DNA of 57,879 nucleotides from Clostridia bacterium (lineage in GTDB: Bacteria; Bacillota; Clostridia; Oscillospirales; CAG-272). The notes under the pieces were generated by a model. The model had not been told where the DNA came from and did not search any database. It saw only the letters and a list, made by a program, of their open reading frames with translations. The translations under genes and the position numbers were made by a program. Position 1 is the first letter of the stretch, and the number at the start of each line of letters is the position of its first letter. The DNA is taken from contig JAFUQP010000031.1 in NCBI GenBank assembly GCA_017472305.1, positions 1 through 57,879 on the forward strand, in the 5' to 3' direction. Shown here in pieces: positions 38,908 to 48,436 of the stretch.

Positions 38908-40221
38908 ATGTCGGATACTGAAAACAGAGCTCCGCGCAGATGCGCCTTTTGCACAAGGGGCGAGGACGCAGTGCGTTTCCTTATTCCCGCAAGGGACGGC
39001 AAGACCTATATCTGCGACGACTGCATCAGCCTTTGCTCGGAGTTTATCGAGGAGCATCTTGCGGCTATGGAGGGCGAGGCTGACGGCGACAAGCTTTCCT
39101 TTGCTACCCTTCCCCGTCCGAAGGAAATCAAGGCAATGCTCGACGAGCACGTAATCGGTCAGGAGGCGGCAAAGCTTGCACTGTCGGTTGCGGTTTATAA
39201 CCACTATAAGAGAATACTCACGCTCGAGGAAAAGTCCGATGAGGACGACGGAGTTGAGATACAGAAGTCAAACGTTCTGCTTCTCGGCCCTACGGGTGTC
39301 GGTAAGACCTATATTGCCGAAACTCTTGCAAAGAGCTTCAAGGTTCCTTTCGCAATAGCCGATGCTACCACCCTTACCGAGGCAGGATACGTCGGAGAGG
39401 ACGTCGAGAACATTCTTCTCCGTCTTATTCAGGCGGCAGACTATGACGTAGAGCGCGCTGAGCACGGAATTATCTACATTGACGAGATTGACAAGATTGC
39501 AAGAAAGGGCGAGAACCGCTCTATTACCCGTGACGTATCGGGCGAGGGCGTTCAGCAGGCACTTCTTAAAATTCTCGAGGGCACGGTTGCAAACGTTCCC
39601 CCGCAGGGCGGAAGAAAGCACCCGAACCAGGAGTTTATCCAGATTAACACAAGGAATATTCTCTTTATCTGCGGCGGCGCATTCGACGGAATAGAGGGAA
39701 TTATCGAGCAGAGGCGCGGTAATCAGCAGATTGGCTTCAATACCGAAAAGGCTACCGCGAAGGAGAAGGCAAAGCGCGGAGTTTACAAGGACGTTATCGC
39801 GCACGACGTTGTCAAGTACGGTATTATCCCCGAGCTTGTCGGCAGACTTCCCGTCATTGTTGCGCTCGACAATCTTGACGAGGACGCACTCGTCAGAATA
39901 ATCAAAGAGCCAAAGAACGCGCTTATCAAGCAGTATAAGAAGCTTCTTTCGCTTGACGGAATTGAGCTTGAATTCGAGGAAGAGGCACTTCGATCAATAG
40001 CACATCTCGCAATTGAGAGAAACACAGGTGCAAGAGGCCTGCGCTCAATACTCGAGGGGCTTATGACAAAGCCGATGTACGAGCTTCCGTCAGAGGAAAA
40101 CGTGGCTTCCGTTCTCGTTACCGAGAAATTCGTCAAGGGACTTGAGCCGCTGAAGGTTACAAAGGCTGCACCGCTTCTTGCCGAAAAGGATAGAACGCTT
40201 CCCCTCCCCGAGGCGAAATAA
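38908..40221 (+). CDS. clpX: ATP-dependent Clp protease ATPase subunit ClpX
   Basis: 437 residues. The N-terminal zinc-binding domain has CAFC...CDDC at about 12-40. AAA+ motifs are Walker [16 protein letters not shown], Walker [12 protein letters not shown], and RPEL-type pore/sensor text further on. It unfolds proteins for ClpP. It is the last gene of the operon, ending before a strong terminator. Confidence 0.97.
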
Positions 40222-40242: not shown

Positions 40243-40277
40243 AAAGGCTTCCGAGTTGTTTCGGAAGCCTTTCTTCT
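40243..40277 (+). terminator. Intrinsic terminator after clpX
   Basis: A 12-bp stem AAAGGCTTCCGA (40243-40254) with TCGGAAGCCTTT (40261-40272) and a T-rich tail. The same stem arms are used after rpsR at 54,138-54,166. Confidence 0.93.
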
Positions 40278-40444
40278 TTGCTTGCGGATTAAATTCTGTA
40301 TTTTTTCGGTGTCAAGGAAGCAAATTCCAACTTCAAAAGAAGGGTTTTTGTTTATTTTTTATGCACAAGGGCGCTGAATTTATGCATATTGCACAACATA
40401 CTGAAAAATTTTCAAAAAAAATTGGTGTTTTTTAAAAATTCCTA

Positions 40445-40473
40445 TTGACAAATAAATAACAATATGGTATATT
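40445..40473 (+). promoter_or_regulatory. Sigma-A promoter of the large non-coding RNA
   Basis: TTGACA (40445-40450), an exact 17-bp spacer and TATATT (40468-40473). Nothing coding lies downstream for 650 bp on this strand. Confidence 0.85.
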
Positions 40474-40479
40474 AAAGGT

Positions 40480-41023
40480 GCAAAGAGGTTAAAGCCAACC
40501 GGGGAGCCTTCGATAAGAACCGAAACGCTACCCGATTATATAGACTTTAAGCCTATAGGATTATTAAAGGCGGACATTGCCGATGCAGAATTACGAAGAA
40601 CCCTTCCACTTTAGCGGCTGCCGCTATGAGAATGGCAAAATGGCGCGTATTTTGTGCATAGCGGCAGTCAGATAAAGAATTTCAGAGTGCTGAATAAAAC
40701 AGCCTGACCGATAGATGCGGTATGATATTCGGGATAAATGTAATTGACTGTCCGAAAACGGGGCAAATGTGACTTGGGCGACGGTACCCTATACCGTAAG
40801 ATTGAAGCCTAAAGTATCATATCTGTAAATCAAAATTGAATAGCGGTTTATAAACAAGTAAATTTGACTATCCTACCCTACCGAGGAGGACGGCAGGCGG
40901 ATATAAATAGATTGTAATTATGAAAACTACGACAAGAGGCGACGACGCCGAAAAATGATTTAGTTAATTAATTAAACCGTATAAAAAATCAGCTGACATA
41001 AAAAATCAGCTGATTTTATTTTT
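40480..41023 (+). ncRNA. Candidate large structured non-coding RNA (~540 nt)
   Basis: The stretch 40,222-41,128 holds no open frame of 60 codons on either strand but has a strong promoter and a strong terminator. Between them many helices are visible. The best is CTGCCGCTATG (40618-40628) with CATAGCGGCAG (40657-40667), capped by CAAAAT/ATTTTG. Others are: GTATGATATT (40720-40729) with AGTATCATAT (40813-40822), closing a branched domain that contains ACGGTA/TACCGT (40781-40797); GGTT/AACC near the 5' end; GGCG-ACGA-CGCC (about 40938-40949); and CGGTTTA (40844-40850) with TAAACCG (40973-40979). The terminator is a 12-bp stem (40985-40996 with 41006-41017) and ATTTTT. It lacks RNase P and tmRNA signatures. 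A large ornate RNA class (OLE-, ROOL- or GOLLD-like) or a new class is possible. Confidence 0.75.
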
Positions 41024-41083
41024 GAGCCTCTTAAGGTCAGGTCTCTGAGGCTCTTGGTATTAACGTCGGAAGCTATTCACTCC

Positions 41084-41157
41084 TTGAAATATCAAAGCCT
41101 TGCGTTCTTTCTGTAAATCATTGCAATATCAAAGCTTCGCGTTTTTTCTGTATGCGA
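41084..41157. repeat. Duplicated 3' end of the AraC-family gene
   Basis: The last ~26 bp of the regulator gene including its stop (ATATCAAAGC...GCGTT...TTTCTGTA on the plus strand, 41126-41152) recur as a diverged copy directly downstream of the stop (41088-41115). Confidence 0.75.
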
Positions 41158-41965
41158 GGGGGCTTGTGTTCATATATTGCTTGAAAATCTTGTGGAAGTA
41201 GTTGGTATTCGAGAAGCCTATTGACTCGGCAATCTCGTTTATCGGGGTGTCGCTTCCCGAGAGGAGCGCCAATGCCCTGTTAATTCTGATACCGTTTATA
41301 TAGTCAATAGGAGTTTTTCCAATACTGTCCTTGAACATCTTAGTGAAATAGTCAGGGGATACGGTTATCATATCGGCAAGCGTTTCGATATAAATCTTCT
41401 CCCCGAAGTGCTCCTCAATATAGCTGATTACGGGACGAAGCCTCATAACGTTATGGTAAATCATACGGTCAAGCTCGTCCTTCGAACCGCAGTAGTAGCG
41501 AAGAAGCGCTGTCATAATGAGATAAATATTAGCCCTAATCGGGAGCTTGTAGCAGACGTCGCGCGACACGTATTCGTCGTAGGACTCGGTCATAGAGAAG
41601 GCAAGGCTCTCATATATTGGATGCTCTGCCCTGAAAACGGTTATTCTGTTACGCGACTGGACGTAGAACATATAGAGAATTTCGGTATCGAAGTTCTCCA
41701 TATTTGACTCGATTATCTCACGGTCAAATACGAGCGAGCGCACACCTGCCTCGCCTTCGCCGGCATCAAGCCTGAAAACGAGTCCCGAGGGAACAAGGAC
41801 GAAGTCGCCTGACTCGGCATCGAGCGTTTCCGTGCCTATCTGCATAGTAAGGCTGCCGAAGGTTACCTCGATTATCTCCATTGCGGTAGGGTTATAGCCT
41901 GTGTGTATGATACCTCTGCCGTGTGACGAGTACATTCTGAATTTACTTTTGGTTTCCTCGGACAT
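41129..41965 (-). CDS. AraC-family transcriptional regulator
   Basis: 278 residues. An N-terminal cupin-type sensor domain (IIEVTFGSLTMQIGTETLDAESGDFVLVPSG) is followed by a C-terminal double helix-turn-helix. The latter has IETLADMITVSPDYFTKMFKDSIGKTPIDYI and the AraC signature INEIAESIGFSNTNYFHKIFKQYMNTSPLAYR. It probably senses a sugar or related ligand and activates transport or glycan genes. Its target is not evident from the neighbours, which are an ABC exporter and a non-coding RNA. The start at 41965 is chosen for GGAGG 5 nt upstream. The ATG at 41980 overlaps that site. Confidence 0.9.
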   Translation of the reverse strand: MSEETKSKFRMYSSHGRGIIHTGYNPTAMEIIEVTFGSLTMQIGTETLDAESGDFVLVPSGLVFRLDAGEGEAGVRSLVFDREIIESNMENFDTEILYMFYVQSRNRITVFRAEHPIYESLAFSMTESYDEYVSRDVCYKLPIRANIYLIMTALLRYYCGSKDELDRMIYHNVMRLRPVISYIEEHFGEKIYIETLADMITVSPDYFTKMFKDSIGKTPIDYINGIRINRALALLSGSDTPINEIAESIGFSNTNYFHKIFKQYMNTSPLAYRKNAKL

Positions 41966-42016
41966 ATTTACCTCCGCCATCTAAAAGTTTTTGCCTCTAT
42001 GTTATCCTATAATTCA

Positions 42017-48251: not shown

Positions 48252-48396
48252 ATAGGAAGATAGAGGCGCACTGCACGAAGATTACCGCACCGAAAAAAGC
48301 CGCCGAGGCTGTGTGGGAAAGGCGTGGGTGCCGAAGCGGATACCGTGGCGGGTATCTTGGCTGGCAGCTCGGATAATATCCGTTCTGCTGTCGCAT
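48252..48396 (+). promoter_or_regulatory. Lysine riboswitch (L box)
   Basis: Conserved L-box blocks appear in order: GAAGATAGAGGCGC near 48256, GGGAAAGG near 48317, GGGTGCCGAAGCGGATA near 48327, TGGCTGGCAG near 48359, TATCCG near 48377 and CTGCTGTCGC at 48385-48394. A small hairpin ATCCCC/GGGGAT lies just before it. Lysine binding should cause early termination and shut off dapA-dapB-ddh-lysA. The gene content downstream fits exactly. Confidence 0.93.
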
Positions 48397-48415
48397 TGAT
48401 TTGCGAAGGGCTATC

Positions 48416-48436
48416 ACAGAAAAGGTCTGTTTTTTG
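48416..48436 (+). terminator. Riboswitch expression-platform terminator
   Basis: ACAGA (48416-48420) and TCTGT (48426-48430) followed by TTTTTTG. The stem is short. The exact alternative pairing with the aptamer was not worked out. Confidence 0.55.

Follow-up and report, generated by a model that had tools for sequence, protein, structure and literature searches.

What is made from the stretch of DNA that follows clpX in this draft genome: a folded RNA, a small protein, or both? The window (the whole stretch of 57,879 nt analyzed here, contig C13 of genome G000, which is 86% complete) holds the single copy of the unit found in the genome. When read from the letters of the window alone, the locus had been taken for an RNA in the manner of OLE, ROOL, or GOLLD, devoid of an open frame. 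Comparison with relatives gives another picture: conservation is highest in a 30-codon ORF that shows a coding signal, and this ORF is folded into a hairpin. We propose that the locus may be a lineage-restricted, dual-function small RNA gene, both coding and structured, a reading on which our confidence and our doubt are about evenly balanced. The family is conserved and narrow, belongs to no RNA class known to Rfam, and is probably not noncoding.

A predicted transcription unit downstream of clpX

The predicted unit, 40445 to 41017 (~510 to 540 nt), is bounded by its own promoter and terminator (Table 1). It is flanked by what we take, from the translations, to be clpX (38908 to 40221, plus strand) and a gene for an AraC-type regulator (41129 to 41980, other strand). 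A terminator-like stem 3' of clpX, at 40243 to 40272, makes it unlikely that the unit is the 3' end of clpX. The promoter proposed in the sequence-only reading is present, and both of its hexamers and the 17-nt length of its spacer are identical in 11/11 members of the family (the window's copy and ten relatives). The region holds 4 promoter-like sites versus 2.7 +/- 1.7 in shuffles, a count not above chance; the weight given to the promoter thus comes from the hexamers and spacer kept in every member and not from the number of sites. The 12-bp terminator is also there, although a consensus scanner did not report it, given that the scanner stops at loops of 8 nt and this loop has 9. The relatives have terminators of different sequence: a script placed one behind ORF2 or the minigenes described below in 10/11 members, the window included, and that of G051 was identified by eye. 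The comparison supports an autonomous transcription unit, with a promoter conserved in the family and a terminator of its own. The segment from 40478 to 41015 folds at -137.1 kcal/mol (z = -3.07), and 1/100 shuffles folds as well.

Table 1. Predicted features of the unit, by position in the window
Feature	Position	Strand	Basis
Possible operator, TATGCATATTGCACA in the window, TTTGTGCAAAATGCACA in G030	40381-40395	.	By eye in 11 upstream regions
Promoter TTGACA-17-TATATT, TG before the -10, A/T-rich tracts upstream	40445-40473	+	11/12 consensus positions
Ribosome-binding site and spacer of ORF1, GGCGGACATTGCCG	40569-40582	+	Comparison of 11 members
ORF1, 30 codons, MQNYEEPFHFSGCRYENGKMARILCIAAVR, then stop	40583-40675	+	Open in 11/11 members, 28-35 codons
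Two-part hairpin within ORF1: outer helix 40616-40628/40657-40669, inner helix 40635-40642/40648-40655, loop GCGCG	40616-40669	+	
Central domain closed by helix 40720-40729/40813-40822	40720-40822	+	Window letters
Central-domain hairpin ACGGUA-CCCUA-UACCGU	40781-40797	+	7/11 members
ORF2, 12 codons, MKTTTRGDDAEK, then stop	40920-40958	+	In 11/11 members
Terminator: 12-bp stem AAAATCAGCTGA / TCAGCTGATTTT, 9-nt loop, T-rich tail	40985-40996 / 41006-41017	+	

Upstream of the unit, ~50 bp before the -35, there is an imperfect palindrome like TGTGCA-N3-TGCACA that is recognizable in several members, not all; it is possibly a site for some regulator.

Could the unit be a divergent copy of a known RNA? 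The sequence-only reading had left room for a known class, and none was found. At the gathering score, Rfam 15 places no family in the window's unit. At E <=10, the interval 40300 to 41100 yields 12 matches of 13.6 to 20.4 bits (best E, 0.096), all below the family cut-off and treated as chance, and OLE, ROOL, GOLLD, tmRNA, and RNase P are not among them. In the loci of the ten relatives, the sole match is a tRNA in L006 that lies outside the element. The genome's tmRNA lies elsewhere, on C23 (tag DNNKVALAA), as does a class A RNase P over the cut-off, on C31; the earlier failure to match the unit to either of these is borne out. More broadly, tmRNA scored above the cut-off in 15/17 genomes searched and in 10/11 carriers (not in G051, which is 76% complete), and of the 4 tags checked, three read DNNKVALAA and one DNSKVALAA; class A RNase P was found in 3/3 genomes searched. 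Size and folding are what would recommend a degenerate tmRNA, RNase P, OLE, ROOL, or GOLLD; given the absence of these families among the 12 matches, and a tmRNA and an RNase P in their own places, we find this reading scarcely credible. The unit does resemble OLE, ROOL, and GOLLD in being a folded RNA of several hundred nucleotides, but it differs from them in its conserved short ORFs and the lack of a covariance-model match. According to PMC12286853, phages, prophages, and tRNA islands are the typical settings of ROOL and GOLLD; the neighbors here are instead clpX and the regulator gene, and the window has no tRNAs except those at 1953 to 2117.

The AGGA found in small loops ahead of the start codons also brought a sponge for CsrA into consideration; it was dropped, as the loops are inconsistent by eye and CsrA (PF02599) was found in 0/17 genomes, 11 of them carriers. 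These are drafts, 56 to 98% complete, so that each single absence proves little and the 17 together more; the same search finds PF02599 in 3/14 control genomes. With tmRNA and RNase P elsewhere and CsrA in none of the 17 genomes, both a degenerate housekeeping RNA and a CsrA sponge are unlikely. Among the literature titles retrieved, none names this RNA, which is weak evidence that it is unpublished, the search having been little aimed at its position.

Three side observations belong with these searches. ARAGORN reports two tRNAs only in the window, and adjacent tRNA-Arg and tRNA-His genes lie at 1953 to 2117 on the plus strand. A lysine riboswitch (80.6 bits) lies at 48253 to 48421, also on the plus strand. 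In G038, two tmRNA matches over the cut-off (C97, 3574 to 3939 and 4948 to 5313; 163 and 129 bits) are ~1 kb apart, possibly a duplicate or an assembly effect.

A reading frame and a hairpin on the same stretch

The statement that the unit has no open frame holds for frames of at least 40 codons, of which there are none on either strand, but it overlooks the conserved 30-codon ORF1 and 12-codon ORF2, both of which fell below a 60-codon cut-off. The case is a caution, in that such a cut-off turns a small-protein gene into a supposed noncoding RNA.

In 11/11 members, ORF1 begins with ATG preceded by a ribosome-binding site and ends at a stop codon. The site is GGAGGA (8) or GAGGA (2) in the ten relatives and is weaker in the window, which has GGCGG where they have GGAGG or GAGG. 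The consensus of the predicted peptide is MQNxEEPFHFxxCRxxxxKIARILCxAAG. Over the 27 codons after the start, the mean BLOSUM score of changed codon pairs is 0.68 versus -0.61 +/- 0.5 in column shuffles that do not model the tree, and 0/300 shuffles score as high; in the other two frames, 191/300 and 291/300 do, which is no coding signal. Stops across the members number 0 in the ORF1 frame versus 14 and 18 in the others, and G012 has a deletion of 6 nt that keeps the frame. This is the pattern of an ORF under protein-level selection. Variation at codon positions 1, 2, and 3 is 0.30, 0.26, and 0.38, a mild tilt of the kind expected if RNA structure also constrains third positions. The 4/11 peptides scanned against Pfam and NCBIfam match no family at E <=1, and so the ORF1 peptide may represent a new small-protein family.

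The GGAGGA..CCAATG style of the ORF1 start also occurs upstream of other genes in the carrier genomes, presumably genes for pyruvate:ferredoxin oxidoreductase-, PPDK-, and ferredoxin-like proteins (named from the translated starts). Does the RNA mimic the ribosome-binding site of another gene? In the 11 carriers, the exact pattern has 7 matches, each at the unit's own locus, and target mimicry was dropped. Among 14 one-mismatch sites that were translated, 9 lead into frames of at least 56 codons and 5 do not, which suggests a general ribosome-binding style and no special target.

The 11-bp stem that the sequence-only reading placed at 40618-40628/40657-40667 exists and, with the 6-bp stem that caps it, lies within ORF1, as part of the two-part hairpin of Table 1. 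In the 11-sequence alignment, 12 of the hairpin's 21 pairs are changed on both sides and 92.2% of cells are paired, a percentage that leans toward the structure because the latter was taken from the consensus of 8 of the same 11 sequences. None of 500 shuffles, again without a model of the tree, reaches this pairing; with the hairpin slid by 1 to 3 columns, 32 to 47% of cells are paired and 2 to 5 pairs are changed on both sides. The changes in G047 and G254 are free of the lean, since neither is among the eight: two pairs in G047 and one in G254 are changed on both sides, at the price of Cys-to-Arg, Ala-to-Met, and Arg-to-Cys replacements. In these two members, pairing in the RNA is preserved while the amino acid is given up. 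The loop GCG is identical in 11/11 members at a four-fold site. ORF1 also folds, on average, better than its synonymous recodings (mean z, -1.3, from members that are related, so that the scores are not independent): 6/11 natural ORFs are equaled only 1 to 14 times in 300 recodings, whereas those of G050, G030, G038, G002, and G047 are equaled or surpassed 61 to 276 times in 300, and ORF1 of G030 is less stable than its recodings (z = +1.3).

In total, the same stretch seems to be selected both as peptide and as RNA. Two overlapping constraints that can be tested separately, one on the peptide and one on the hairpin, would make the locus a compact model of a short sequence that serves coding and structure at once. 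Two other readings were weighed. In the first, the unit would be a plain mRNA for small proteins, with the peptides as its sole products, a hairpin that shields the message or delays ribosomes, and a remainder that is untranslated. The coding signal of ORF1 fits, as do the conserved, consensus-like promoter and a ribosome-binding style shared with metabolic genes of a usually strongly expressed kind. A 21-pair hairpin kept at the cost of amino acids, however, exceeds what the peptide needs, the loop is invariant where the code would let it vary, and 7/11 members have further structure in the middle region; we consider this reading unlikely, if the most plausible of the alternatives. In the second, a purely structured noncoding RNA would carry the short ORFs as by-products of conserved RNA sequence. 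Hairpin covariation, the weak ribosome-binding site of the window's copy, and invariant third codon positions in the ORF1 loop and at the 3' end of ORF2 are all to be expected of such an RNA; a start codon kept in 11/11 members behind a good ribosome-binding site in ten relatives, codon-wise conservation confined to one frame, in-frame indels, and a frame with no internal stop in any of the 11 copies are not, and we think it quite unlikely. The earlier notion of an independent structured RNA is supported by promoter, terminator, and covarying hairpin; that of an RNA with no open frame is not supported.

The 3' parts of the unit and a possible mode of action

Behind ORF1, conservation is uneven; the middle of the unit, like its 5' region, is poorly conserved among the members. 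The helix at 40720-40729/40813-40822 was correctly called, and potential closing helices of different sequence, taken with no null model, are listed for G050, G030, G021, and G012 and appear in the fold of G038. The hairpin inside this domain has a loop that in the relatives is mostly CUUUA, or else CCCUA, CUUAA, or CUUUU; its outer pairs vary, and 3/5 inner pairs vary on both sides by eye, in matches to a search pattern drawn from the same sequences and used with no null. The long-range pair 40844-40850/40973-40979 of the sequence-only reading exists as letters, but no counterpart was seen by eye in the relatives.

Near the 3' end, before the terminator, comparison points to a second conserved mini-ORF. 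ORF2 has the consensus MKxxxRGxDAEK and a stop, in nearly invariant DNA, and its last 12 nt, GCCGAAAAATGA, are identical in 11/11 members. From ATG to stop, the distance is divisible by 3 in every member (39 nt in 6 members, 36 in 4, and 24 in 1). Codons are kept as well: GCC for Ala, GAA for Glu, AAA for Lys, and the TGA stop in 11/11; GGC for Gly in all 10 that have it, G012 being without the RGx part; and GAC for Asp in 9, with GAG in G051 and TAC in G012. A purine run precedes the ORF2 start in three members (G002, G047, and G254), and 8/11 have no purine-rich ribosome-binding site by eye. Translational attenuation between the end of ORF1 and the start of ORF2 was tried and dropped: an 11-bp pairing tops the lists for G038 and G051 and was not seen in the window.

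In G001 (by eye), G002, G047, and G254, minigenes of 3 to 5 codons follow ORF2, each a ribosome-binding site, ATGTACA, and a stop, with a terminator after them. G002 (L117, 644 to 856) has four in tandem at a spacing of 49 to 50 nt, with the stop after three codons; two of its copies start ATGCAGA or GTGTACA, the latter a GTG start. The axe-txe minigene is reportedly a minigene-bearing leader, and it shares with these four members very short ORFs behind ribosome-binding sites; unlike in that leader, the minigenes here close off a small RNA at its 3' end, where as many as four stand in tandem before a terminator.

How might such an RNA act? SR1 of Bacillus subtilis is said to be a dual-function sRNA. 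VcdRP of Vibrio cholerae is another, whose VcdP has 29 residues (PMC8672173), and at least ~10% of bacterial sRNAs are estimated to hold a coding ORF (PMC5521070). The dual-function reading is modeled on VcdRP and on this estimate. Like VcdRP and SR1, the unit would be an independent small transcript, here a predicted one, with a short ORF plus a feature at the level of RNA. Unlike in them, this feature is a covarying hairpin within the ORF, and the unit also has a second mini-ORF, joined in four members by minigenes. In our model, the transcript would be made in abundance and its translation would give a peptide of ~30 residues, while the hairpins would confer a separate regulatory role, through pairing with a target RNA or contact with a protein. 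Any ribosome that translates ORF1 has to open the hairpin, which is within the coding part, so that a given molecule could either be making peptide or be in its RNA-active fold, not both at once. We speculate, at what is the least supported step of the model, that this couples the two functions, with the RNA active at low translation of ORF1 and the peptide produced at high translation.

The same features could be read in other ways. The unit could be an RNA that senses translation, a decoy message under very strong transcription that buffers or measures initiation capacity and does not act via its peptide; the short ORFs and, in some lineages, the tandem 3-codon minigenes with their good ribosome-binding sites would capture initiating ribosomes, and the hairpin in ORF1 would report their passage. 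We regard this as improbable. Could the hairpin instead serve ribosome rescue? An ArfA- or BrfA-like factor would be made from a truncated message, the hairpin being cut and the nonstop product normally tagged by tmRNA and destroyed by ClpXP. PMC8012679 describes a stem-loop/RNase III mechanism for arfA and a terminator mechanism for brfA, with 72 residues encoded in both cases and a C-terminal KH motif in both proteins. The unit has a conserved hairpin in a short ORF adjoining clpX, in a cell with tmRNA and ClpX. ORF1, on the other hand, encodes 28 to 35 residues with no KH, as against those 72 codons and the KH end (PMC8012679), so that it does not qualify as an ArfA or BrfA; it is closed by a stop codon in 11/11 members, ~235 to 590 nt more RNA lie behind the hairpin, and the adjacency to clpX may reflect shared descent only. 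We judge a rescue factor of this kind to be very improbable indeed.

Carriers and near matches

The sequence-only reading had proposed a covariance search for homologues with compensating base changes, and these were found, in 11/69 genomes of the genus, the changes being those of the ORF1 hairpin. A DNA search matched the unit in 8/60 genus genomes, its own included, and a covariance model (R1) was built from those 8 sequences. Against the 69 genomes, R1 gave 12 matches at E <=0.01, of which 11 (own included) scored 88 to 113 bits (E <=2.4e-17); the 12th, in G004, was dropped at 24.8 bits as far below the carriers. R1 matched 5/246 genomes of a family sample, two of them known carriers and three at 25.5 to 27.7 bits, dropped on the same ground, and 2/394 of an order sample at E 0.001, both known carriers; the R1 searches of genus, family, and order used Infernal's stricter filters, with which diverged relatives can be missed. 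G004 and the three weak family genomes had E values of 5.6e-5 to 2.7e-4 in a small search, and no such unit was seen in the 250 nt of each that were read. A DNA search of the family sample matched 13/196 genomes, namely, two known carriers and 11 with short matches (20 to 44 nt, E 4.7e-4 to 0.0084), which were dropped; 0/11 of these loci (L013 to L023) match R1 at E <=1. Outside the genus, then, the family and order samples hold no convincing copy, and only one narrow clade appears to carry the unit.

Exact motifs give a similar list. A 14-mer occurs in 13 genomes, of which 10 are carriers; in G057, G011, and G031, it sits in unrelated DNA with no R1 match. Across a collection covering 84,980 species, the exact ORF2 motif occurs in 10 records. 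Nine are carriers (drafts named Clostridia or Oscillospiraceae bacterium), and the tenth, from Paenibacillus, was set aside, since the motif lies within a 1024-codon open frame and R1 finds no match. This search missed G012 and the window, whose record is perhaps not in the collection. Deer, yak, or goat gut is the source of 8/9 carriers with named records. Plasmid and phage records hold no similar DNA, and viral contigs have 0 matches to the ORF2 motif.

In 11/11 carriers, the unit is downstream of clpX on the same contig, with one other ORF in between in G051 and a clpX fragment at the contig end in G021. The DNA downstream of clpX in 17 noncarriers matches R1 in 0/17 at E <=1. By eye, some carriers and some noncarriers alike have the presumed gene for an AraC-type regulator behind clpX in convergent orientation, and the unit may thus have been gained or lost between two old neighbors.

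Two further loci drew attention. In G038, a repeated stretch around GCGGGAAATGTCG...AACGATTGAT lies downstream of the unit (L006, ~1905 to 2140). In G122, of another genus, the weak R1 match of 27.7 bits (L036, ~1501 to 1570) could encode NEEPTRFHACRETGR, which is like the EEPFHF..CR of ORF1, probably by chance.
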